DNA from: a virus
Virus record (IMG/VR): IMGVR_UViG_3300018062_000110
Location: 1 to 22,556 of that record
Strand: one strand, 5' to 3'
DNA: 22,556 nucleotides
The position numbers and the translations under genes are program-made. Positions within the stretch are counted from its first letter, which is position 1. Every line of letters begins with the position of its first letter. Shown piece by piece: positions 5,443-22,556 of this stretch. Below the pieces are notes generated by a model. It had not been told where the DNA came from and ran no database searches. It saw only the letters and a program-made list of their open reading frames with translations.

Positions 5443-8400
5443 GTGTCTCAGACAAGATTCAGCTTTCAAAAACCCTCACCGGTAAAGAGAGAAAAGCTAG
5501 ACCAGAAACTTTCCGAGATTTATGACAAAGTAGCGAGTAGGTTCAAGAAATTCCCGAAATTCCAAGAGCTATTGACCAATCCAAAGTCAAGCTATTCCTC
5601 AGCAGATTTGAAGGATGAACAGGAACCAGAACCCTTTATCAAACAGCATCTTGTTGAGCCACTCTTTGAAATCTTGGGTTATGAAATTGTTCCTGAAACT
5701 GTCCTTCCTGTTCCAAGTGGCAGAAAGAAACCAGACTATACGATCAGACCCATGAATCGAAATGAACCTATCTTCTATGTTGAAGCAGAACCAATCAATA
5801 AGGACCTCTATGCTGATGGAAGTGGTCTTTCACAAGTAAGAAGCTGGCTCCTATCCAGAGGCTCAAAGACTGATTATGGAATTGCCACCGATGGCTTTCA
5901 ATGGATACTTTTGAAATTTGACACTTCTTCCTTGAAAAGCAAGGAATTCTTCAAAGTTGACCTGAGACCAATATTCCTCAAGATACTAAACCCTGGCAGT
6001 TTTGTGGAAAGGACATTGGTAGAGAAGACAGAGGAAGACTTCCTTCAGCTTGACAAAGATTCCGTCTCAACATTTTTGACCAGTTATCTTGAGCGAATTG
6101 AGGAAGAAAAAGAGGAGATTACAAAGAAATTCTATGGCGATTATGTCAAGCTTGTTTTTGGATATGATGAAAAGGGAAACATTGTTAAGGGCACATACTT
6201 GCTCAGCAACATTATAACTCCCACTGAGCAAGTCAGCACTGAAGCAAATCTATTTTCCGTTGTGCTTATGAACAGACTGATTTTCATCAAATTTCTTGAA
6301 GAGAAGGAAATAGTTCCAAAGGATTTGCTTAAGAAGCTACTTGGAAGATACAAAGACTCCCCTACACCTGGAACTTTCTACGAGACATATTTGAAACCTC
6401 TGTTTTATGAGGTCTTCAACAAGAGCAAGAATAACAGAATCTCGAGTGTGAGAACCAACCCCCTTTACAGTCAAATACCTTATCTTAATGGTGGCTTGTT
6501 CAGAGAAGTCATCAAGAATGAAAAGAACTACAATCTGAAGGATGAGGGCATACAACTGGTTCTAGAGAATCTATTGGAAAAGAAAACGTATAGCTATGGT
6601 ATGGAAGCTGGAATCAACCCAGACATCCTTGGTTATATTTTTGAGAGAACGATCAACTTCATCTCTGGAACTGGAACAAACCAACAGAAGATGGAAGGAG
6701 CATACTACACTCCAGATGACGTGGTTGAGTTTATTGTAGAGAAAGCCTTGACTCCGGTCATCTTAGGAAAGATGATCGAAGGGTTAAAAGAATCCGATTG
6801 GTCTGAAAAAGACCTCAAAGGGTATGATTCAATCGAAGATATATTGATTCCAAAGAACATGCCAAGAAACCCAGCTCATGTTCACAGAATGATTGATTCA
6901 CTAGATTCTATGAGAGTATTAGATCCTGCCTGCGGTTCTGGGCACTTCCTCACGGCTATGCTATCTTTAATACTCAGAGTCAAAGAGAGCTTGATGAATG
7001 CAATAGGAGAAAAAGTTGATAGATACAAGCTAAAGAGAGGTATCATATCTCATAATCTGTTTGGGATTGATATCGACCATAATGCTGTTGAGATAGCAAG
7101 GTTGAGGCTGTGGCTCTCATTAATAGAGGAGGTTGTTGATCCAGAGCATATAGAAACGTTGCCCAACATAGACTTCAACATTATTGCTGGCAACTCGCTT
7201 GTTGGTTGGATGGATGAGAAACTAAACACACATCCTTTCACTAACTTGCTGGATGATTTGTACATAAAGGAAACTCTAGACAATCTGCGCATATCGTACA
7301 AAGAAAGGGTTGACAAAATTAGAGACCTTATGCAGAAGATGAGAATAGAGGACACAATCAAGGCATATGAAGCATTAGTTGAAATATACTCTCAAGAATC
7401 TGGAGAGAATGCTATCAGACTCAGAGAGACACTTGAGAACATAAGGCAAAAGCTCTACGAAGTGATTAACAGCTCCTATCTTGCTTTGCTGAAAGGGAAG
7501 GTGCCTGACAATGATTTTGGTGAATTGAATAAGCACTTGACAGAAAGAACTCCTTTCCATTGGAGAGTCGACTTTGCTAATGTCTTCTTTGATGGGGGCT
7601 TTGATGTGATTACTGGAAACCCGCCATACGTAGAAGATAGAAACAACAACGCATTGGACCTCAAAATCATTCAAGCCATGAAGACTCCAGAGCAGAAGCC
7701 TCGACAGCATTGGAAGGAAGAGAAGCCAGGAGAGCCATTTTTCTATATCTCCAAAGACTGTGGGAACACACATGCCTACTTCATTGAAAGGTCAATCAAA
7801 CTGCTGAAGAATCGAGGCAGATTTGGTTTCATAGTTCCAATTGCCCTTGTATCGACTGAGAGGATGGACTGCATCAGGGAGTTTATTCACGTCAATTCAT
7901 CAGAAGTAGAATACTACAATTTTGATGATAGACCTGGAAAGATATTTGGTGGTATTGAGCACTGCAGGGAAACAATAGTTCTCACCGAGAAAGGAAAGGG
8001 ACAGGGTTTTGTGCTCACAAGCAAGTATCACAGATGGTACAGTGAAGATAGGTCAAAGCTTCTGAAGAATCTGAAAACTCATAAATGGAGAATCGTTAAT
8101 CCAACAGATATCATACCAAAAATAGGGACAAAGATAGAGGAGGACATCCTTCAGAAGCTGAAGCAGAAATCTAGTGGAAAGAGTGTCCAAAACTACTTGA
8201 AAGACTCCGGAACAAGGATATGGTATCACAATGCGCCACAATACTGGACACATGCCCATACAGAGGAATACCTTCCAAAAGTTGAGTATTTTGCCAAGAT
8301 CAGGGAGAACAAGGTGACTGGAGAGAAACTACCCTACGAGTTGAAGGAAACAAAAGTATCCTCTCACTACAAACCAATTACTGTTGAGAAAGACGATGCT

Positions 8401-8784
8401 TACATTTTCAATGGTTTGTTGAATAGTTCTCTGTTCTATTGGTGGTTTGTGGTTTGGTCTGATGGAAGAGACCTTTTGGCAGATCACATTAAGAGCTTCC
8501 CAATTGACGTTGAAGCTTTTAGTCAAGCTGCAAAAGACAAATCGAGGAAGCTTGTTGAAGAACTGATGAATAGCTACGATAAGAGCTCTAATGTGAAAAT
8601 CAATGTGAGAATGGGCGGCTATGCAATCAAGATAAAGGAGATAATTCCCTCAAAATCAAAGGCCATAATTGATGAAATTGATGGTATTTTTGCTGAGCAA
8701 TTTGGCTTTACTCAGAAGGAAAGAGAGTTCATTATGAAATTTGACATAGAGTTCAGAACAGAGAATAAAGACTCGACATTGTGA
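5443..8784 (+). CDS. type IIG-like restriction-modification enzyme (N6-adenine methyltransferase with nuclease-like N-terminus)
   Basis: The 1113-residue protein has the layout of single-chain Eco57I/MmeI-like enzymes. Residues about 60-160 form a PD-(D/E)xK-like domain: PDYTI (D98), FYVEAEP (E114-x-E116), then SQVRSWLL and a nucleotide-specificity-type strand. A helical linker follows. The methyltransferase has YYTPDDVVEFI near 422, SAM-binding DPACGSGHFL at 494-503, GIDIDHNAVEIARLRLW, and catalytic NPPY at 726-729, marking adenine-N6 methylation. The last 250 residues (for example FNGLLNSSLFYWWF) look like a target-recognition domain. The usual catalytic lysine of ExK is glutamate here; BamHI also uses E-x-E, so activity is possible but unproven. 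Size also fits a BREX PglX methylase, but no other BREX gene is nearby. The leaderless GTG start is set by the TATA box at 5413. AT-rich composition (about 38% GC in a counted line) suggests acquisition. Confidence 0.93.
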   Translation: MSQTRFSFQKPSPVKREKLDQKLSEIYDKVASRFKKFPKFQELLTNPKSSYSSADLKDEQEPEPFIKQHLVEPLFEILGYEIVPETVLPVPSGRKKPDYTIRPMNRNEPIFYVEAEPINKDLYADGSGLSQVRSWLLSRGSKTDYGIATDGFQWILLKFDTSSLKSKEFFKVDLRPIFLKILNPGSFVERTLVEKTEEDFLQLDKDSVSTFLTSYLERIEEEKEEITKKFYGDYVKLVFGYDEKGNIVKGTYLLSNIITPTEQVSTEANLFSVVLMNRLIFIKFLEEKEIVPKDLLKKLLGRYKDSPTPGTFYETYLKPLFYEVFNKSKNNRISSVRTNPLYSQIPYLNGGLFREVIKNEKNYNLKDEGIQLVLENLLEKKTYSYGMEAGINPDILGYIFERTINFISGTGTNQQKMEGAYYTPDDVVEFIVEKALTPVILGKMIEGLKESDWSEKDLKGYDSIEDILIPKNMPRNPAHVHRMIDSLDSMRVLDPACGSGHFLTAMLSLILRVKESLMNAIGEKVDRYKLKRGIISHNLFGIDIDHNAVEIARLRLWLSLIEEVVDPEHIETLPNIDFNIIAGNSLVGWMDEKLNTHPFTNLLDDLYIKETLDNLRISYKERVDKIRDLMQKMRIEDTIKAYEALVEIYSQESGENAIRLRETLENIRQKLYEVINSSYLALLKGKVPDNDFGELNKHLTERTPFHWRVDFANVFFDGGFDVITGNPPYVEDRNNNALDLKIIQAMKTPEQKPRQHWKEEKPGEPFFYISKDCGNTHAYFIERSIKLLKNRGRFGFIVPIALVSTERMDCIREFIHVNSSEVEYYNFDDRPGKIFGGIEHCRETIVLTEKGKGQGFVLTSKYHRWYSEDRSKLLKNLKTHKWRIVNPTDIIPKIGTKIEEDILQKLKQKSSGKSVQNYLKDSGTRIWYHNAPQYWTHAHTEEYLPKVEYFAKIRENKVTGEKLPYELKETKVSSHYKPITVEKDDAYIFNGLLNSSLFYWWFVVWSDGRDLLADHIKSFPIDVEAFSQAAKDKSRKLVEELMNSYDKSSNVKINVRMGGYAIKIKEIIPSKSKAIIDEIDGIFAEQFGFTQKEREFIMKFDIEFRTENKDSTL

Positions 8785-10554: not shown

Positions 10555-10950
10555 GTGTCTAATGACGTGAAGGTCAAGGCAATAGATCAGGCCTCCCTAT
10601 ACCTGGTTAAAATTCGCAAGATTACGTTTGTTGACACTCAGGCGATTCGTACTAAACTGCTCCGGCAGCTTGAGGGCCTGTTTGATTTGGCTATCGCGAT
10701 ATCGAAAGGCAAAGTGAGACACCTCAGCGACGAGGATGGGAATGAGTATAAGATCACGCTTAAAGTGCGCGAGAAGTGGGCGCGTATCGCAGCTTACACG
10801 GGTCAGGTGATGGGCGGCTTAGCCCTGGGCTATGATGAGAAGCAACTTCAGACCGACTTGAAAAAGCTGGAGCAGATGGTGAATGAAGTCCGACGTCACA
10901 GAAAAGCAACTGAAGAAAACAATCCAGCAAATGTACCAGGAAGAGTTTGA
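10555..10950 (+). CDS. terS: probable terminase small subunit
   Basis: About 131 residues, mostly helical and charged, overlapping the large terminase start by 68 bases. Small terminase subunits recognise the packaging site and deliver DNA to the large subunit; they are poorly conserved, so the call rests on size, helical character and position directly upstream of the large subunit. The end (YDEKQLQTDLKKLEQMVNEV) is a likely coiled coil for ring assembly. The frame is open to ATG 10459 and TTG 10528, but I prefer GTG 10555, which follows the purine-rich GGTGGGAGGGGGAGG and avoids overlap with the gene ending at 10526. No clear helix-turn-helix is visible in the retained N-terminus, so another packaging accessory protein is possible. 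Confidence 0.55.
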   Translation: MSNDVKVKAIDQASLYLVKIRKITFVDTQAIRTKLLRQLEGLFDLAIAISKGKVRHLSDEDGNEYKITLKVREKWARIAAYTGQVMGGLALGYDEKQLQTDLKKLEQMVNEVRRHRKATEENNPANVPGRV

Positions 10951-12277
10951 ACAATCGCAATCGGGCAAGGCTAGAATTCCCGAAAAAATTCTCCCATTCC
11001 TGAAAGACCTCTTTAACTTTACGCCCAAAGACTATCAAACTAAGCTTCTCGAAGAAGACGCTAAGCGCATCGTTGTGCGTTGGAGCCGCCAGGCTGGCAA
11101 GACAACCTGCATAGCGTTAAGGGCCATCAGATTCGCGCTGACGCATGACAAGACGCTTACATTAATCGTGGCGCCCTCGCTCAGGCAGAGCATGATCATG
11201 AGCGATCGCATCGGCGACTTTCTGGGCGGCCTGCCTGAAAAGTACAAGTACATCGTCACGAAGCTGCAGAGAACCACGGTGCGTTTCTGGAATGGCAGCC
11301 GGATCGTGGCGTTGCCCAACAGTCCACAACTTCTCAGGGGCTACACGGCAAATCAGGTCATAGCGGATGAGGCCAATTTCTTCAAAGAAGATCAACTCGT
11401 CTTCTACAACGTGCTCTACCCCATGCTGAGCACAACCGACGGCACTCTCATCGCGTCCAGCACGCCCTGGAACAAGGACAGCGTCTTCTACCAGATGTGC
11501 CAGAACAGCGAGTTCAAGCAGCACGTCTGCACCTGCGAACAAGTCGTCGAAAGCGGCCTCGTCAAGCAGAGCTTCATGGACGAAATGCGGGCTCAGCTTC
11601 CGTTCGAAAGGTTTCAGCGCGAGTTCATGGCCGAATTCGTCGAAGACGTCGACGCCTGGCTCACCCAGAGCCTCATCGTCAATTGCATCGACAGCCGCCT
11701 GCAGCCTTACGATTTTCAGGACCAGCCTAAAGGCGAATTCTACGTGGGAGTAGATTTCGGCAAAGAAATGGACTTCAGCGTCGTACTGGCTGCCCAAAAG
11801 ATCGGCGACATGCTACAAGTCGTGCATGTTCATCGTTTTCCGCTGAAAACCGAGTATGCCAGCGTCATAGGCTACGTCAAAAGCCTCCTAGACCGGTGGC
11901 ACGAAATCAGGGCTGTTTATGCGGATATCACTGGCGTAGGCAATTATATCGTTGAAGACATGTTCCGCAGCGGCATCCAGAACGTGAACGGCATCACTTT
12001 CACCGTGCAGTCGAAGGAAGAGATGGCAACGATCATGCGGGAAAAGATGCGGAACGGCGAAGTCAAGCTGTTCTACATTCCAGCCACTAAACGCGAAGAC
12101 GTTGACCTGACCGCTGAGCTTAACGTTGAAAAGTACGAGCTCATGAAAACAGGTCACCTGCGGTTTAGCCATCCTGAAGGCGGGCACGACGATGTTTTCT
12201 GGAGCATGGCACTAGCAGTGTACGCCGCTGTAAAAGCACCACTACCAGGAGCAGGCGCCGTAATGCTACCTCACTGA
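10883..12277 (+). CDS. terL: terminase large subunit
   Basis: The 464-residue product is the DNA-packaging motor ATPase and nuclease. The ATPase domain has Walker A WSRQAGKTT (67-75), Walker B VIADEANFF with D162-E163, and the coupling motif ASSTPW (191-196). The RNase H-like nuclease has YVGVDFGKEMD (D291), VYADITGVGNY (D348) and GHDDVFWSMALA (D436/D437), the three acidic positions expected for cutting concatemers. It acts at the portal vertex of the empty capsid. The start at ATG 10883 gives full N-terminal coverage and overlaps the small subunit gene; translation is probably coupled. GC is high (about 62% in a counted line) and arginine codons favour CGN, unlike the AT-rich restriction block upstream. 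Confidence 0.97.
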   Translation: MKSDVTEKQLKKTIQQMYQEEFEQSQSGKARIPEKILPFLKDLFNFTPKDYQTKLLEEDAKRIVVRWSRQAGKTTCIALRAIRFALTHDKTLTLIVAPSLRQSMIMSDRIGDFLGGLPEKYKYIVTKLQRTTVRFWNGSRIVALPNSPQLLRGYTANQVIADEANFFKEDQLVFYNVLYPMLSTTDGTLIASSTPWNKDSVFYQMCQNSEFKQHVCTCEQVVESGLVKQSFMDEMRAQLPFERFQREFMAEFVEDVDAWLTQSLIVNCIDSRLQPYDFQDQPKGEFYVGVDFGKEMDFSVVLAAQKIGDMLQVVHVHRFPLKTEYASVIGYVKSLLDRWHEIRAVYADITGVGNYIVEDMFRSGIQNVNGITFTVQSKEEMATIMREKMRNGEVKLFYIPATKREDVDLTAELNVEKYELMKTGHLRFSHPEGGHDDVFWSMALAVYAAVKAPLPGAGAVMLPH

Positions 12278-12397: not shown

Positions 12398-12919
12398 ATG
12401 GAAGACAGGCGTATTCTAGTTCTTGACTGTACGCCCAAAAAAGAGCCAAGAGAGGGGCAGTTGCTCAAGAGTTTCTTCGCGATATGTAAAGTGTTCAAGC
12501 CAAGGCAAGCAGCATCCCTGTACTATCCTGTGACTTCCAAGACGAAATTTCTTAAGAAGCTTGGAACGAAGAAACGATATGACATAATCCATATTTCCGC
12601 TCACGGATCCTCAACGGGAATAGGATGCGGGAAAGCCTGGGAAGTGAGCCCAGACGAAATCAAGAGCGTTCATTCTGCTAGAACCAAACTGGTTCATGTA
12701 AGTGCATGTCAGTCTTCGTACAAGGAAATGGCAGACGCTTTCAATTCTGAATTCTTCTTGGCGCCAAGAACGGATATAGAATGGATTGATGCAGCAATGT
12801 TCTCGATGATGTTTTACAAGCGCTACATCGTGGACGGCATTAGCATGAGGAACGCGTTCGAATATGCCAGGACACGAACTCAGACAGCAAGTGTCTACCC
12901 GAACCTATGGGAAGAATAA
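12398..12919 (+). CDS. compact CHAT/caspase-like cysteine protease candidate
   Basis: The 173-residue protein shows the caspase-hemoglobinase core of CHAT-type peptidases: a hydrophobic strand then DIIHISAHGS with catalytic-type H69, and about 30 residues later KLVHVSACQSS with C104, followed by a helix-strand segment (EFFLAPRTDIEWIDAAMFSMMFY) and a last helix (DGISMRNAFEYARTR) as in CHAT domains. Family members cleave proteins and many act in cell-death or anti-phage systems such as gRAMP/TPR-CHAT. Here it is a lone domain without TPR, sensor or membrane part. It sits between large terminase and portal with its own TATA box and lower GC (about 45% in a counted line), as expected of an added cargo gene. 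Possible roles: anti-defence protease, superinfection exclusion, or head-maturation helper. The fold call is good; substrate unknown. A small hairpin (12923-12935, AGACA-GAT-TGTCT) follows. Confidence 0.75.
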   Translation: MEDRRILVLDCTPKKEPREGQLLKSFFAICKVFKPRQAASLYYPVTSKTKFLKKLGTKKRYDIIHISAHGSSTGIGCGKAWEVSPDEIKSVHSARTKLVHVSACQSSYKEMADAFNSEFFLAPRTDIEWIDAAMFSMMFYKRYIVDGISMRNAFEYARTRTQTASVYPNLWEE

Positions 12920-13321: not shown

Positions 13322-14695
13322 GTGCCTTGGACAAGCCAACGAGACAAGCCTGGCCTAGTGGCGCAGCGGCAGTATCCTGAGGCGATAGCTGAGAAACAGA
13401 TTGCGGAAGAGATCCCGCTTAGCTGGCGTAGTGATAGTCTCTTATGGGGCTACGTGACCAAATATTACCTTAAGGGTTCGGGCGCCGGCTTCGTGGTTCC
13501 GCCCTATGCTGCTTACTGGGAGCGGATTTGGGGAGCCACCCCGGTCGAGGATTTACCCCGCTACAAAGAATTGTACGCCTTCACTCCGTACATTAAAGCG
13601 TGCATTGACGTCACAGTGAACCTTGCCATCAGCAACGGGTTTGAGCTTGAGGGCGGAGATGACGCCGTTAGAGAATGGCTTCTAGACTGGTGCGACGGAC
13701 ATAACATTTTGCAAACTCTTCGGATAATCGCGACGGATATGCTTGTTTTTGGGGGCGGCATGTTTGAGATCTGCCGGGAAGACGGCCAAGCGCCTGAGGA
13801 GTGGTGGCTTAAGCCGTTGGATCCCGTTAACATGCGCGTTCGTCGTGACGCTTATGGTCAAGTCATTGGTTATGTGCAGCTGCTTACTATGCCGCCAGTC
13901 GTGTTTACTCCGCAGAATATCGTTCACGTACGGTGGGGCGCTAAGAGTTGGTGGTACGAATTCAACTATGGCATCTCGCTTCTTCGACCATTGCTGAAGA
14001 TTCAAGCCCTGATAGATCAATTCGAAAATGACATGGCTACCATCATTCATTGCTACACGAAGCCCATGCTCTGGATCCAAGCGGGGCGTCCGGACCAGCC
14101 TTTCGGGGACACGCAGCTCAATCAGCTTATGCAGGCGTTCAGCCAACGCGGCGTAGCAACGGACGTGTTCACGCGGGGCGACGTCAACGTAAAACCGCTC
14201 ACGTCGCTCACGAGGGATATCAAAGTCGATTATTGGCTCAGTTATCTCTATCAGCAACGTAGCGCCGTGCTGGGCGTTCCAAAAATCTTCCTAGCCGAAG
14301 ATCTTGGCGGCACGAACCGCGCAACAGCTGATATTGTAATGCAGGAGTACTGCGCTCGGCTACGTATGCTCCAGACTCTAATCGGTGAGAATATCGAGAC
14401 AGACCTGTTCGCGCAGCTCGTTGAGACCAAGTTTGGCAAAGGTGTCGAAGTTCCGCATATCGCATGGAAGCCAGTGTGGGAGCCCACGCTAGATTTGAAA
14501 GCAAAATACATCGGCGAATTGGTCCAGCTTGGTATCATCTTACCTAGTGAAGCAAAGCCGCCGTTGGGCTATTCGGAACAGCCATCAGAAGAGGCGATTC
14601 AAGCTGCGAAGTTGCTTCCTCCGCCTAGAGGTCCTGTGAAGGGTCTGATGGCTCCATCGAGTGAAGAAACGGAAGGTATTCCAGCGGGAGACTAG
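13322..14695 (+). CDS. portal protein
   Basis: The 457-residue product matches portal proteins of HK97/SPP1-type tailed viruses: an N-terminal region ending in VPPYAAYWERIW, a stretch FTPYIKACIDVTVNLAISNG followed by LVFGGGMFEI, wing strands with LKPLDPVNMRVRRDAYGQVIG, a stem/clip region with NIVHVRWG and YGISLLRPLLKIQALIDQFE, and a late helix VPKIFLAEDLGGTNRATADI leading into EYCARLRMLQ. It forms the ring through which DNA enters the capsid and onto which the neck assembles. GTG 13322 has GTGATAG, part of the anti-16S match, about 5-8 bases upstream. The proline-rich C-terminus looks flexible. No MuF-type gene follows directly, unlike many related viruses. Confidence 0.93.
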   Translation: MPWTSQRDKPGLVAQRQYPEAIAEKQIAEEIPLSWRSDSLLWGYVTKYYLKGSGAGFVVPPYAAYWERIWGATPVEDLPRYKELYAFTPYIKACIDVTVNLAISNGFELEGGDDAVREWLLDWCDGHNILQTLRIIATDMLVFGGGMFEICREDGQAPEEWWLKPLDPVNMRVRRDAYGQVIGYVQLLTMPPVVFTPQNIVHVRWGAKSWWYEFNYGISLLRPLLKIQALIDQFENDMATIIHCYTKPMLWIQAGRPDQPFGDTQLNQLMQAFSQRGVATDVFTRGDVNVKPLTSLTRDIKVDYWLSYLYQQRSAVLGVPKIFLAEDLGGTNRATADIVMQEYCARLRMLQTLIGENIETDLFAQLVETKFGKGVEVPHIAWKPVWEPTLDLKAKYIGELVQLGIILPSEAKPPLGYSEQPSEEAIQAAKLLPPPRGPVKGLMAPSSEETEGIPAGD

Positions 14696-16523: not shown

Positions 16524-17669
16524 ATGCAGCTCCGATATTTTGTGCCTTTCAAAGCGCAGCAGAGCGTTGACGCACAGTATGCGCTGAAGGAGAAGCTTTT
16601 GAATATTGAAGGCGAGGTTATTGATGACTCTGTTAACCTGAATAAATGGCAGGTTCCGGCTGAGGATCTTGACTTCTTTGTGTCGTCCCTCATAGGTGCG
16701 CAACTTCGAATCGATCATGCAGAGAGCGCTATGGCAGTCATTGGCAAGGTCCCAGAAGGCAAGAGGGAGGGCAATACTGTACGTTTTCGTGCTGAGATTG
16801 GTGATGAAGCGATAATCGAGAAGGTCCTGCGCGGCTATTTATCCCATGTCAGCGTTCAGGTTGACAGTGACAATATCGAGTGCTCGCGTTGTAAGCGCCC
16901 AACACGCAAAGAGGGAGTTTTGATCCATCTCTGTCCAAATGCTTGGGAGATCGTTCATAGACCCAAAGTTCGCGAGCTCAGCATCGTGGCCAGCCCAGCG
17001 TACAAGAACACTACTTTTGCTCCATTAGGCTTCGCCGCTGCCATGAATGAGGATCAGTGGAGCGCAGTTTCACAGTTACTTAACGGTAACAAGGATGTGG
17101 GATCTAGACGGGAGTCGCAAGATCCTGAAAATAAACTAGAAGGCAAACAAATGGAGGTGAAGCGCTTGTCTGGACAAAATGCTCAGCAAGAGGCTTCTCC
17201 GCACAAAACACAAGTTGTTCCTCTTGGCCAAGGCGAATCAGCGCCCACACAAGTAACATACCAAGACCTGATGAATCAAGTGACATCACTGCAGAAACAG
17301 ATGGGTGCCAGCGACGCCTCAGATAGTGAGATCGACACTTTGAACAAGAAGGTCGCCGAACTCGAAGGCGAACTAGCCAAACGAGCAAAGAAGTCAGAGT
17401 TGAGCAGGCGTGTCGCGGAACTTGGCAGGAAACTCTCATCTGAAGCAGAAGAAGGCGAAGAAGACGGAGACGGAGATGGGAACGGTGGGCCTAAACCAAA
17501 TGGTCCTATAGACGTTGTTTCTGAAGAAGGGAAGAGAGCGAAGAAAGCGACAGGTAAAGGCGTGGTCGCTATCGAAGAAGTTGACAAGAGCGGACTGAAG
17601 GGACCAGAGTATGACTGGTTCAGCAAGGACCTGTTGAAGGCTGCTAGTCAACTGCCAGGCTTCAAGTAA
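16524..17669 (+). CDS. prohead protease fused to scaffold-like C-terminus
   Basis: The 381-residue product starts with a herpes/HK97-type capsid protease of about 170 residues: LNIEGEVIDDS, the histidine in LRIDHAESAMAVIGKV (H65), the serine candidate in LSHVSVQV (S110) and the ELSIVASPAY strand (E151) before APLGF. A small zinc-binding-like insert sits between them (C120, C123, H135, C137). From about residue 175 the chain becomes glutamine-, lysine- and glutamate-rich with coiled coil (SEIDTLNKKVAELEGELAKR) and an acidic linker, the character of an internal scaffold. Such fusions guide capsid assembly, then digest themselves and the scaffold. GTGATC, complementary to archaeal 16S rRNA, lies 6 bases before the ATG. 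It is directly followed by decoration and capsid genes, as expected. Confidence 0.85.
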   Translation: MQLRYFVPFKAQQSVDAQYALKEKLLNIEGEVIDDSVNLNKWQVPAEDLDFFVSSLIGAQLRIDHAESAMAVIGKVPEGKREGNTVRFRAEIGDEAIIEKVLRGYLSHVSVQVDSDNIECSRCKRPTRKEGVLIHLCPNAWEIVHRPKVRELSIVASPAYKNTTFAPLGFAAAMNEDQWSAVSQLLNGNKDVGSRRESQDPENKLEGKQMEVKRLSGQNAQQEASPHKTQVVPLGQGESAPTQVTYQDLMNQVTSLQKQMGASDASDSEIDTLNKKVAELEGELAKRAKKSELSRRVAELGRKLSSEAEEGEEDGDGDGNGGPKPNGPIDVVSEEGKRAKKATGKGVVAIEEVDKSGLKGPEYDWFSKDLLKAASQLPGFK

Positions 17670-17680
17670 GGCGATTCAAG

Positions 17681-18118
17681 ATGTCTCAAACTTTTTCAAC
17701 GGGTCCATTTCCACAGTTTGACGCTAGTGGCGCTACGGGCGCTCTCATAGCAGACCGATTCATTAACTCTTTCATCGCGGGCGAAGTCTTGGATCAGACG
17801 GTGGGCGGTCCTGGATTGGCTGTTTACTTGTCTGCGGCTTTTACCGTGAAAAGAACGAACGCTGCGAACATGACGACTTTTATCGGCATAACGATGACGA
17901 AGCAGTCAAACGTTGGAGGCAAAGTAACAGTGCTCTGCAGAGGCATGACGAGGGCGAAAGCCTTCGGCTCAATCTCAGTAGGGGATCAGTTGACGACGGG
18001 TCCACCTTCGCAGCCAGGTTCAGTGCAGACAGACAACACGAGCAAAAACTCAACGATAGTCGGCATGGCTTTGCAGGCGATCAGCAGCGGCGCCACGGGC
18101 ATCATCATTTTGTGGTAG
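17681..18118 (+). CDS. DUF2190-like capsid decoration protein
   Basis: The 145-residue, small-residue-rich protein has the repeating strand pattern of DUF2190/capsid-cement proteins: FIGITMTKQSNVGGKVTVLC, FGSISVGDQLTTGPPSQPGS, then NSTIVGMALQAISSGATGII ending in IILW. These proteins bind the outside of the capsid lattice and stiffen it. It begins 11 bases after the protease/scaffold gene and ends 11 bases before the major capsid gene, the common order for decoration proteins. AAGGCGAT, one mismatch from the consensus, precedes the ATG. There is no signal peptide; it acts after assembly in the cytosol. Confidence 0.82.
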   Translation: MSQTFSTGPFPQFDASGATGALIADRFINSFIAGEVLDQTVGGPGLAVYLSAAFTVKRTNAANMTTFIGITMTKQSNVGGKVTVLCRGMTRAKAFGSISVGDQLTTGPPSQPGSVQTDNTSKNSTIVGMALQAISSGATGIIILW

Positions 18119-18129
18119 GGTGACAAACA

Positions 18130-19023
18130 GTGAGCTTCTATCGAGATGCTCTAACGTGGGTTGACACGGCCGGAATTGGCTATCCAGCTTTGCATCAGAA
18201 GCTGGTTGAGCTCACTATGCCGGCGTTGGTCGTCAAACAGTTACTACCCGAAGTGCCACTCGTCGCGGGCAAATCATTCACCATAGCGAAGCAGAAAGGC
18301 AGCCGCAGCGTCGGAATTAGCGAAATCACAGAAGGCGCCGAGATCCCGCTTGACTTTACGCCCTACTCGTACGTGAACGTTATTCCTTACAAGAAGGGTC
18401 TGCGCGAGAGGATCAGCCGAGAAAACATCGAAGACCTGTACATCCCCGTCATAGAAGACCAATTGCGACGTCTAGCGCGACGTATGGCTTACGCAATTGA
18501 CCTGGACTGCATGACAGCGATCGCATCGGCTGCAGGATCCGCGGGCACTGCAACTGGTAAATCATTGTCAGCAACCGGTACAGAGTTCACGATAGCCGGA
18601 GGCTTGGGCACTAAAGACATACTGAGCGGCAAGGCTCTGATCGAAAGCTATAACGCCATACCAGACTCGATTATCCTAAACCCCATAAATGCGCGTGACA
18701 TGTACTACTTGCCACAATTCAGCCTTTACGGGGAATATGGGGAAGCGATCGTGAAGGGCGGGTTCATCGGAACTGTCTACAACATGCGCGTCTACGTGAC
18801 AACGGTGTGCTCGGCCGGGTCGGCGTACATTCTCAGCACAGGCCAAAACGTTTCGGCGGCTTATGCTCCCCTTGGCTTCTTTGTTATCAAACGACCTTTG
18901 ATGACTGACATCCAGGTGCAGAAAGAGTTCGACAGCATAGACGTTATGCTTACCACGAGGTTCAGTCCCGTCGTGATGTGCGGTGAATTTGTGTGCAAGA
19001 AGATCGGGCTTAACACAAGCTAA
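18130..19023 (+). CDS. major capsid protein, HK97 fold
   Basis: The 297-residue product sits after protease and decoration genes and reads as an HK97-type capsid protein: an N-terminal arm (MSFYRDALTWVDTAG), a strand pair with KSFTIAKQKGSRSVGISEIT, then the E-loop-like GAEIPLDFTPYSYVNVIPYK and the long spine helix IPVIEDQLRRLARRMAYAID, followed by A-domain strands (NPINARDMYYLPQFSLYGEY) and the closing segment LMTDIQVQKEFDSIDVMLTT. It lacks a long cleavable N-terminal domain, consistent with scaffold being supplied by the protease gene. GTG 18130 is set by GGGTGA (18118-18123), 6 bases upstream. A T-rich stretch follows the stop, so this is probably the last gene of the most strongly expressed unit. 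Confidence 0.9.
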   Translation: MSFYRDALTWVDTAGIGYPALHQKLVELTMPALVVKQLLPEVPLVAGKSFTIAKQKGSRSVGISEITEGAEIPLDFTPYSYVNVIPYKKGLRERISRENIEDLYIPVIEDQLRRLARRMAYAIDLDCMTAIASAAGSAGTATGKSLSATGTEFTIAGGLGTKDILSGKALIESYNAIPDSIILNPINARDMYYLPQFSLYGEYGEAIVKGGFIGTVYNMRVYVTTVCSAGSAYILSTGQNVSAAYAPLGFFVIKRPLMTDIQVQKEFDSIDVMLTTRFSPVVMCGEFVCKKIGLNTS

Positions 19024-19094: not shown

Positions 19095-19574
19095 ATGGAA
19101 GGAATAGGTTTGAGTGTCGCGTTTGTAGCTTATTCGGATATTCAGAACGAGCTTAACGCTACGTTTGACGCTTCAACCAGCACATACACTGTTTTCGGCC
19201 TAGCGGTTGGTCAAGCGGCTTTTCAGGCGCACGTGGACTTCGCAAACCTTTATGTCAATTCAATTGTCGGGCAGAACCTGTTGACGACGGATCCAAGGTA
19301 CAACTGGGCGAAGATGACGGCCATAAACTTGGCTTGTCTGCGTGTCCTGGTTGCTGCGTCTGGCGGGCTGATGCTTGGCGGCTTTGACTATCGCTTGGGC
19401 GATTTGTATGTTATGAAGGCGAATGTCAGCAAGCTTGCCTTCCAGACTGCGGTACAGCGTTATCAGACGGATTTGGTAAAGATATTGCTGAATTTCGCAA
19501 CTCCGGTGATGACGGCGGATGCGCAAGCTGCCGGCGATGTGCCCACTTACCGAGGCGGGTTAATCTCGCCATGA
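19095..19574 (+). CDS. probable head-tail connector (adaptor-type) protein
   Basis: A 159-residue soluble helical protein directly after the capsid gene, the usual place of the gp6/gp15-type adaptor that binds the portal ring. YSDIQNELNATFDASTSTYT opens the chain, then helices AFQAHVDFANLYVNSIVG and MTAINLACLRVLVAAS and a final helix AFQTAVQRYQTDLVKILLNF; size and helix content fit, but there is no diagnostic motif. ATG 19095 has no ribosome site. An alternative TTG at 19110 (MSVAFVAYS) has GGAAGGA about 6 bases upstream. Its stop overlaps the next start (ATGA), beginning a chain of four overlapping small genes. The identification is by position. Confidence 0.6.
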   Translation: MEGIGLSVAFVAYSDIQNELNATFDASTSTYTVFGLAVGQAAFQAHVDFANLYVNSIVGQNLLTTDPRYNWAKMTAINLACLRVLVAASGGLMLGGFDYRLGDLYVMKANVSKLAFQTAVQRYQTDLVKILLNFATPVMTADAQAAGDVPTYRGGLISP

Positions 19575-20505: not shown

Positions 20506-22128
20506 ATGGGAACCGTTCCACAAAGCTACTACGATTTCGTGATGCATTACGCGCCCTATTATTACGTTAAGACTACGGCTATGACGTCGAGTCCGCCGAG
20601 CGGCCAAAAAAACGTTGCCGTCGCGAATGGAGCCAACTTTCAAGCCGGCTACCCGGTGCAGATCTATGACAACAACAACAGCGAGTGGAACGTTGTAGCC
20701 AGCGTAAACGGTAACACGTTGACGATGCAGAACAACCTTCAGAACACGTACTACACCACCGCTGGCGGGAGTGTTGACGGTCCAGATCCGGCTTATGGCC
20801 AGGGTGCTTTTCCAGCTGCTTTCGCCATAGACTTTCTCTATCTAGCGTATAGTGCGCCGCAGTTTGCAGTTGAGCAGGCAGCTATTCTAGCAGAGATAAC
20901 GACTCTTGCAAACTTCCTCGTCGCGCAGCAGTGCACGAATTCAAGTCTTGCAGCTTATGGCGGGTTTCAGAGCAGTGTCGGCAGTAACCAGTACTGGGCT
21001 GTCGACGCATGCCGATGCATCCCCAGCCTTCTCCGAGCCTATGCGTTGACTAACAACCCGTCGTATCTAGCTGCGGCTCAACTTGCTGGGTTGACTTTTC
21101 TGTACAACATGCAGCATCAGCCCGCAGTTCTCGGTTTGCATGATCACTATTACGGCGGCTTTGCAGAATCAGTGAATAGCTCTGGTGTCTGGTCGGCTCA
21201 GATGGATGTTGAATGTCTCTACGGTTGCATCGGCCTGATGATGCTCGCAGGTACGTACGATGCAGCAAACGCGGCCGTCTATAATCAAATTTTGAGCGAT
21301 CTCACAGGTTTCTTGAGTCAAGGTTTTTCGCAGCTCTACTTGGACTTTACACCATTGCCTTCTGGCGATGACAACTGGCACAGGGTCGGCTCGCCTGAAA
21401 CGCAGATCTACGACGATTCAATGGCCTTCGCGCTATTGGGCCTGTTCACCTATGAAGGCTGGAGCGCAACTTGCCAGCAGGTTTATGGTTTCATTCAAAC
21501 GATACGGGCTTCGGCGCAGTATCCCGCTTATAATCCGTTCATTTGCTGGTCAGGCTACATCGATGTCGTACAGAGGTTTCCAGCATGCGCATACTATGAC
21601 GCGATCACCATCGGCATTCTAGGCCAGATCCGAAAGGCGCATGACAAGCCTAGTTACGCTTTGGCCATGCAGATAATCAGCCAATACCAAGCACAGTTCA
21701 TGAATTGGGGGCCGCAGTTCATTGATTACAGCGCCATCACACCGCAGAAGGCCATGGCAAACGTCTCTTGGTTGGGCGAGTTTTACCTGAACTATATCGA
21801 TCCTGTAACAGACTTCACGCAGCTGCTCGACCTCAACGGCGACGAGTTGCAATTGTTTCCGATCCAGGAAGCAGCTAACGAGGTAACTTGGGGTCAACCG
21901 ATCACCCTGCTAGGCATGGTGACGATGGGCGCCACAAGCGAGTTAATCCTGGAACCCGGCTACATCTCGCAGAAGCAGATTACCGTTCACAGTTTCCTGC
22001 CCACGCGAGTTCATGACAAGATTCGCTATAGCGGCGAAGATTACGAGGTTATCACGGTCAGCGATTACGATTTGGATGGGGATCCGCTGTTTTACAAGAG
22101 CGTCTGCAAGAGGCTGATTACGCAATGA
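20506..22128 (+). CDS. neck protein fused to a sugar-hydrolase-like toroid (inferred)
   Basis: The 540-residue product seems to have three parts. Residues about 30-90 form a small beta domain (KNVAVANGANFQAGYPVQIY, then VNGNTLTMQNNLQNTYYTTAG) of a kind common in virion proteins. Residues about 95-430 are helical with paired hairpins and conserved-looking aromatic and acidic loops (GGFQSSVGSNQYWAVDACRC, LHDHYYGGFAES, MDVECLYGCIG, PETQIYDDSMAF), the style of an (alpha/alpha)6 glycoside hydrolase or lyase. Residues about 435-540 (RVHDKIRYSGEDYEVITVSD, then FYKSVCKRLI) resemble head-closure/stopper proteins of tailed viruses. The next gene overlaps by ATGA and looks like a neck or tail-completion protein, which fits the C-terminal assignment. 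GTGAAGTGAG lies just before the ATG. No signal peptide. Enzyme activity is not shown. Confidence 0.7.
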   Translation: MGTVPQSYYDFVMHYAPYYYVKTTAMTSSPPSGQKNVAVANGANFQAGYPVQIYDNNNSEWNVVASVNGNTLTMQNNLQNTYYTTAGGSVDGPDPAYGQGAFPAAFAIDFLYLAYSAPQFAVEQAAILAEITTLANFLVAQQCTNSSLAAYGGFQSSVGSNQYWAVDACRCIPSLLRAYALTNNPSYLAAAQLAGLTFLYNMQHQPAVLGLHDHYYGGFAESVNSSGVWSAQMDVECLYGCIGLMMLAGTYDAANAAVYNQILSDLTGFLSQGFSQLYLDFTPLPSGDDNWHRVGSPETQIYDDSMAFALLGLFTYEGWSATCQQVYGFIQTIRASAQYPAYNPFICWSGYIDVVQRFPACAYYDAITIGILGQIRKAHDKPSYALAMQIISQYQAQFMNWGPQFIDYSAITPQKAMANVSWLGEFYLNYIDPVTDFTQLLDLNGDELQLFPIQEAANEVTWGQPITLLGMVTMGATSELILEPGYISQKQITVHSFLPTRVHDKIRYSGEDYEVITVSDYDLDGDPLFYKSVCKRLITQ

Positions 22129-22556
22129 GTACGTTGGACACTTATGAGGATCCTGTGACGACTGCGATTCGTCTAATTCAGAGTAACATTAACGTCATCA
22201 AGAACGACGAGTCCATAGCCAGTATTTACGTTTCGGCGCAGTGGTATGATCGTGAGCTCTTCAAGAACTACGACGCGCAGATCAGCATCGGCCTCGTGCG
22301 AAGTATCGATAAGAAGCTGACAGTTGACGGAGCCACACGTCAGCGCATAGGAAGCTTACGACTTAACACGTGGAGCACCAACAGACCCCAAACCAGCGAC
22401 GACGGCCCAACGATGCGACAGAAGATATGCCAGGAAATCAACCGCATAATCCATCAATACATGAAAACGCCGAACCTTGTCAACCTAAACTACGCAGGCG
22501 AAGGCTACCCTTCAGGGTCTCCACATAAAGCATTCTGGGCAGACGCATCAACAGAA
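22125..22556 (+). CDS. neck or tail-completion protein, cut by the window end
   Basis: The frame from ATG 22125 is open for 144 codons to the end of the window. The product begins MSTLDTYEDPVTTAIRLIQS, includes strands (SIASIYVSAQWYDRE; AQISIGLVRSIDKKL) and RIGSLRLNTWSTN, then a helix MRQKICQEINRIIHQYM. A helix, a strand pair, then a final helix is the order of tail-completion/tail-terminator proteins that cap the head-tail joint. The ATGA overlap with the previous gene implies co-translation. The 3' end is missing, and the family call is by pattern and position. Confidence 0.65.
   Translation, partial: MSTLDTYEDPVTTAIRLIQSNINVIKNDESIASIYVSAQWYDRELFKNYDAQISIGLVRSIDKKLTVDGATRQRIGSLRLNTWSTNRPQTSDDGPTMRQKICQEINRIIHQYMKTPNLVNLNYAGEGYPSGSPHKAFWADASTE

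Follow-up and report, generated by a model that had tools for sequence, protein, structure and literature searches.

An (alpha/alpha)6 toroid fused to a predicted head-closure protein in tailed viruses of Bathyarchaeia

Glycan-active decoration of the virion neck is already known; phi29 gp12, for instance, degrades teichoic acid. Neck collars and appendages such as those of phage Milano, T4 (wac), XM1 (gp40) and phi29 (gp12) are made of other proteins (PMC10491603). Lactococcal phages of the 936 and P335 groups carry a neck passage structure that equips the head-tail joint with domains of carbohydrate-binding or pectin/alginate-lyase-like type (PMC6669499). The archaeal virus HFTV1 contacts its host mainly through the head (PMC9973310), and its turrets contain carbohydrate-binding and deacetylase-like domains with a proposed role in binding and modifying S-layer glycans (PMC12494034). 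P22 gp4 is cited there as a head-tail connector protein with a glycan-hydrolase (peptidoglycan) role (PMC12494034). In SPP1, six copies of gp16 on a dodecameric adaptor close the channel (PMC9701221).

The gene analysed here shares with SPP1 gp16, other siphovirus stoppers and PHROG 939 a C-terminal fold and the slot between adaptor and terminator; those proteins are unfused and ~105–125 aa in length, whereas here ~430 residues (a toroid and an optional beta domain) are fused N-terminally. HFTV1, likewise an archaeal member of the Caudoviricetes, also has a domain resembling a carbohydrate enzyme at the head side of its virion, but this has a deacetylase-like fold and belongs to separate turret proteins over capsid hexamers, while the toroid here is fused to the DNA-gate protein. 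The lactococcal neck passage structure is a separate fibre protein of ~500–900 aa with a BppU-like N-terminal ring and other folds; the fusion lacks these hallmarks (separate gene, BppU-like ring), its toroid being part of the closure gene itself. phi29 gp12, T4 wac and XM1 gp40 differ as separate trimeric appendages on other scaffolds, and P22 gp4 is another protein with another fold and a bacterial wall target. C5-epim_C proteins and AGE 2-epimerases have the toroid fold in common with the fusion, but their catalytic residues are not conserved here, their N-terminal beta-sandwich/hairpin domains are absent, and the toroid is joined to a virion protein. In the open-licence literature we could not find this fusion partner and fold described, nor any paper on a C5-epimerase in a bacteriophage or virion context. 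The accessible parts of a Bathyarchaeia virus survey that reports tailed viruses (PMC10848311) and of a paper on a tailed provirus in a complete Bathy-6 genome (PMC11697101) do not mention it.

The window, i.e. the whole stretch of DNA analysed, is itself a virus record of 22,556 bases and, like all data on the fusion family, is a metagenomic sequence. Its packaging, head and neck genes are as follows:

10883..12277, plus strand: terminase large subunit (phrog_2, 7.3e-42)
13322..14695, plus strand: portal protein (phrog_9232, 1.5e-22)
16524..17669, plus strand: probable prohead protease/scaffold, from its position and a weak match to phrog_4523 'major head and protease protein' (0.11)
17681..18118, plus strand: capsid decoration (cement-like) protein (Pfam Phage_cement_2, 0.0059, below the cut-off)
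18130..19023, plus strand: major capsid protein (Pfam Phage_capsid_4, 5.2e-7; phrog_1650, 5e-11)
19095..19574, plus strand: probable head-tail adaptor, gp6/gp15-like (adaptor profile of relatives, 15.6 bits, E 3.8e-6, five window proteins searched)
20506..22128, plus strand: toroid/head-closure fusion protein, 540 aa, open and without an internal stop
22125..22556, plus strand: tail terminator, truncated by the window end (terminator profile of relatives, 160.9 bits)

Between terminase and portal, positions 12398–12919 encode a 173-aa protein that resembles by eye a CHAT-type caspase-like protease.

An earlier note, made from the sequence alone, had read the fusion gene as a C-terminal neck protein of about 105 residues preceded by a glycosidase/lyase-like (alpha/alpha)6 part and a small beta domain, and its coordinates and reading frame hold. 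We modelled the 540-aa protein with AlphaFold2 from 127 homologues, a diverse set including three unfused closure proteins, and obtained a mean pLDDT of 95.0 and a pTM of 0.93; a run with 18 close homologues alone reached a pLDDT of 48 and was set aside. The model contains 12 helices (residues 6–15, 101–115, 118–141, 165–182, 185–208, 235–251, 253–275, 303–317, 321–331, 367–379, 381–393 and 417–429), a small beta domain at 20–93 and a C-terminal beta domain at 446–536. In this prediction the 12 helices form six alpha hairpins that close into an (alpha/alpha)6 toroid, which comprises aa 1–23 and 92–434, VIA-align matches to solved toroids beginning at residue 1. The resulting layout is:

20506..20574, plus strand: toroid helix 1, aa 1–23, retained in beta-less variants
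20575..20778, plus strand: small mobile beta domain inside the toroid, aa 24–91, missing in 144 of 221 relatives
20779..21807, plus strand: toroid helices 2–12 ((alpha/alpha)6), aa 92–434 (fold matches and Pfam C5-epim_C)
21412..21417, plus strand: D303-D304, adjoining carboxylates at the N-terminal end of a toroid helix, invariant in 124/124
21598..21600, plus strand: D365, an invariant carboxylate of the toroid alignment directly 3' of invariant Y363-Y364
21808..22125, plus strand: head-closure (stopper) beta domain, aa 435–540 (phrog_939, viral fold matches and the standalone homologue L137:9126-9503)

The fusion is thus a conserved two-part protein, with a C-terminal closure domain of ~105 residues and a remainder made up of toroid and beta insert. 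Structure prediction and fold search, which the note had suggested as checks, gave a toroid for the middle part and closure-protein matches for the C-terminus. Between the window protein and a 91%-identical relative, dN/dS was 0.067 for the toroid and 0.045 for the closure part, values that point to strong purifying selection on both. Across the family alignment the toroid is the more conserved part, with a mean pairwise identity of 0.61 against 0.52 for the closure domain.

The neck identity of the C-terminal residues was borne out by several lines of evidence. PHROG 939 ('head protein') matches aa 476–537 (8.4e-4), and a viral fold library returned head-tail joining proteins, head-to-tail stoppers, a closure knob, SPP1-type head-tail adaptors and a head-to-tail connector complex protein, with ~100–140 aligned columns and TMt mostly of 0.4–0.7; these matches were assigned to the C-terminal domain by their length, their names and the independent sequence evidence. 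The best evidence for closure identity is a naturally unfused version. One related provirus (L137, 9126–9503) encodes a standalone 125-aa closure protein in the slot between adaptor and terminator, which matches the fusion C-terminal profile at 1.9e-16 and phrog_939 at 1.2e-7 and has close relatives in four IMG/VR contigs; its length also accords with the ~100–120 residues that the note had given as usual for neck proteins. At 540 aa, against ~100–125 for a whole stopper, the fusion corresponds to such proteins in its C-terminal ~105 aa only. An unfused closure protein in the same slot means that the toroid was either added to an ordinary closure gene or lost from the unfused form. Sequence searches of the PDB with the single fusion protein and with the C-terminal alignment gave no useful match, and tblastn of the unfused protein against phages gave only insignificant matches, a few of them annotated as head closure, stopper or connector. 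The head-closure profile also matched (1.6e-14) the C-terminal domain of a Bathyarchaeia topoisomerase VI B subunit (L136:7327-9411; Topo-VIb_trans, 4.9e-61), a match set aside as outside this system.

Gene order agrees with the note's placement of the gene in the head-closure slot. Among loci whose contig reaches far enough, a terminator comes directly after the fusion in 204 of 216, a tail tube follows within 4 kb in 166 of 167 and an adaptor lies upstream in 129 of 167. Proviruses show the order protease, cement protein, capsid protein, portal, adaptor, fusion, terminator, tube, tape measure and hub. In most loci the terminator beside the fusion is 320–380 aa long as opposed to ~150 (e.g. 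L086:11599-12606), the long forms bearing an additional, conserved domain at the C-terminus (phrog_5793, weak GH114_assoc); the window ORF at 22125–22556 is the truncated start of this gene. Two further proteins occur in the block of relatives: a 415-aa GH5/GH35/GH42-type TIM-barrel protein between terminator and tube (L083:12294-13541; Pfam Cellulase, 4e-9), and, between the genes for the capsid protein and the fusion, a right-handed beta-helix protein of 712 aa (L086:6781-8919) that might likewise decorate the neck or the capsid.

No relative of the fusion was found by tblastn among 50,697 annotated phages. IMG/VR yielded overlapping sets of full-length relatives, with 17 found by single-protein patterns, 104 by alignment, 160 by a profile of shorter relatives and 36 further divergent ones. 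The same fusion, which the note had proposed to look for in related archaeal viruses, is present in hundreds of contigs and proviruses. Genome-contig matches fell exclusively in Bathyarchaeota/Bathyarchaeia assemblies, with 54 of 257 Bathyarchaeia genomes containing a match (a count that takes in fusions, fragments and single-domain matches); in a phylum-wide draw of 398 genomes none was found outside Bathyarchaeia, all 18 matches belonging to genomes of the class search. Since many matches lie within proviruses inside large host contigs (e.g. 1.1 Mb and 0.3 Mb), the hosts of these relatives are Bathyarchaeia, and by extension so presumably is that of the window virus.

Several loci depart from this pattern. 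In one Bathyarchaeia assembly (G001; L099, L103-L107) the fusion gene occurs six times, each in a different provirus or fragment, and a remnant with fusion aa 1–106 alone (L097:2981-3355) lies upstream of a host elongation factor 2 gene. At L104:9511-16337, with L284, genes of host appearance flank an adaptor-fusion-terminator-tube-hub block, and the ~30 kb around it contain neither capsid nor portal nor terminase gene; this block is either a remnant or a capsid-less tail particle.

In the PDB, Foldseek matched the toroid to glucose-2-epimerase, GH76 mannanases, cellobiose 2-epimerases and 3ren, an enzyme of the alpha-amylase type, with E values down to 7.7e-8. VIA-align gave a Z of 28.3 against 3ren (rmsd 3.2 over 304 residues) and 24–28 over ~290–340 residues against AGE epimerases, unsaturated glucuronyl hydrolases (GH88), GH63 and GH76, with GH8-like enzymes also matched; such values far exceed those from a merely common helical arrangement and bear out the glycosidase/lyase-like reading of the middle part. 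By sequence, the nearest family appears to be the helical domain of D-glucuronyl C5-epimerase, a weak but repeated match. Pfam C5-epim_C matches 12 of 18 family members below E 0.1 (best 8.9e-4), the window fusion scoring 14.7 bits against a curated cut-off of 23.3 and the relative L263 exceeding it with 25.4 bits, and the family profile found C5-epimerases as its top matches among PDB sequences (E 0.07–0.11). Matches to Pfam TPR_18, phrog_557 and the like were below threshold and taken as chance.

Catalytic residues of the human C5-epimerase are E499, Y500, N510, Y560 and Y578, and those of the R. albus AGE enzyme are histidines H184, H243 and H374 (PMC13308652). In the profile alignment the EEY motif of C5-epimerases is not kept, falling on the variable R/E221 and position 222, while the other catalytic residues lie outside the aligned stretch. 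No histidine is invariant among 124 toroids, the best being H292 (in 106), which makes AGE-type chemistry unlikely. Because EEY falls on variable positions and an invariant histidine is lacking, neither chemistry is simply transferable. Other positions are strikingly constant: R170, W291, D303, D304, Y351, Y363, Y364, D365 and W401 are invariant (in all, or all but one, of the 124 toroids), and D167, Y302, W348, D353 and D407 are almost so. Helices 165–182, 303–317 and 367–379 have several conserved residues modelled at their N-termini or immediately ahead of them, and each of these helices is preceded in the model by a short strand or conserved loop. N-terminal helix ends are the usual place of the active site in the (alpha/alpha)6 fold, and from these modelled positions we infer that the conserved residues line a cleft. 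GH76 mannanases have an adjacent Asp pair in the catalytic centre, and GH76 structure titles among the PDB fold matches name D125 as a residue of that centre; the invariant D303-D304 pair and the fold Z of ~24–25 make the comparison one of sequence and fold.

The small beta domain exists as the note had described, but it does not simply precede the toroid. In beta-less relatives aa 1–23 are joined straight to 92–540, with aa ~24–91 cleanly missing, which makes the domain an insert between the first two helices of the toroid. It is present in 77 and absent from 144 of the 221 distinct full-length toroids, and an essential role was rejected on this count. Pfam K1-lyase_Rider matches it in 8 of 18 members (best 4.3e-4), with two other carriers of the module scoring 14.9 and 16.7 bits against a cut-off of 27 bits. 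The same viruses also carry this module in their tail-hub proteins, and Bathyarchaeia have it in secreted proteins that bear a dockerin; it would be a shared accessory module used in the tail hub too. Large secreted Bathyarchaeia proteins with this module, one with a dockerin, are encoded at L141:2178-6233 and 7585-8523 (profile E ~1e-26).

We consider it probable, though well short of certain, that the fusion is a head-closure protein with outward N-terminal toroids that bind host glycans and perhaps process them. We hold the same degree of belief, by analogy, in the joint claim of a gp16-like C-terminal closure, a neck ring of six toroids and clefts that engage glycans. The C-terminal domain would close the DNA channel as SPP1 gp16 does, in six copies on a dodecameric adaptor. 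Because the closure domain is taken as six copies like gp16, from which the copy number and outward orientation both derive, six toroids would surround the neck and DNA gate and protrude as a collar. Their conserved clefts would engage glycans of the host surface, most likely S-layer N-glycans or a surface polysaccharide, and may cut or epimerise what they bind, given the invariant carboxylates; for processing as well as binding we see the chances as roughly even. Modelled on HFTV1, this neck grip would be a first, reversible step near the head that loosens the surface before the tail tip engages. Supporting context comes from other genes of sugar type that relatives carry in this block, the GH5-like one of L083 and the beta-helix one of L086. 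Pseudomurein, which the earlier note had named beside S-layer sugars as a target, is an unlikely one, as it is a wall polymer of methanogens and the hosts are Bathyarchaeia; glycans of the S-layer or N-linked ones are better candidates. The note's wider proposal, that the ring binds or cuts surface glycans or acts as a collar, fits all the evidence that the sequences provide. An extension in which the binding or cutting of host glycan by the neck toroids would promote gate opening, so that live enzyme, surface sensor and genome lock are combined, seems to us quite improbable.

A shared fold alone shows no function, and the lack of conserved C5-epimerase residues and of any invariant histidine also weighs against the preferred reading. 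A cleft that binds glycan without chemistry, making the ring an auxiliary receptor-binding device, is a plausible if tentative sub-case, whose probability overlaps with that of the wider reading. The toroid does not keep the catalytic residues of its two closest enzyme families, and the carbohydrate-binding modules that 936 lactococcal phages have on the neck attach to host cells (PMC6669499), but the invariance of D303, D304 and D365 is, we infer, of the kind usual where (alpha/alpha)6 enzymes have kept their catalytic carboxylates.

Whether the toroid might have no sugar function at all, and simply brace the neck or the place where it meets the capsid, turns largely on where else it is found. 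Toroids are joined to the closure domain in 220 of 221 distinct full-length cases; in the exception (L263:5992-9228) the same toroid (7.7e-134) lies N-terminally on a 1,078-aa protein encoded after a tape-measure-like gene. This appears by position to be a tail-tip protein, which suggests that the toroid module moves between neck and tail tip. The C-terminal part of the L263 protein resembles by eye a second, different alpha/alpha toroid. The Milano collar has neither fibres nor spikes and was suggested to contribute to particle robustness (PMC10491603), and the loss of known C5-epimerase and AGE catalytic residues would suit such a bracing part. A purely structural role is nevertheless unlikely: the invariant aromatic and acidic residues at helix ends exceed usual packing needs, the toroid is not confined to the neck, and viruses with the standalone closure protein manage without it. 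With toroid and beta module at both host-facing sites of the virion, neck and tail tip, a role at the host surface is favoured, and it is the toroid after the tape measure in L263 that argues for the outward-facing, host-directed orientation of our preferred reading. That the protein acts instead inside the cell, trimming or epimerising host or viral glycans before assembly with its closure part as a packaging tag, is very improbable, for although sugar epimerases and glycosidases are among the toroid relatives and the toroid profile also finds cellular Bathyarchaeia proteins of 788 aa (4.8e-8), a free enzyme would need neither the near-universal fusion nor the joining, in the exception, to what is by position another virion protein.

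A head-closure protein is normally a minimal DNA plug, and here a sugar-enzyme toroid is welded onto it in nearly every member of a widespread virus group of the sediment Bathyarchaeia, one of the most abundant archaeal classes. By analogy, the toroid ring probably lets the virus hold on to host-surface sugars or trim them. The fusion can be used as a marker for tailed viruses of Bathyarchaeia, and the first grip of archaeal viruses on glycan-coated cells becomes testable with one soluble domain, in the form of the ~460-aa beta-less variant.
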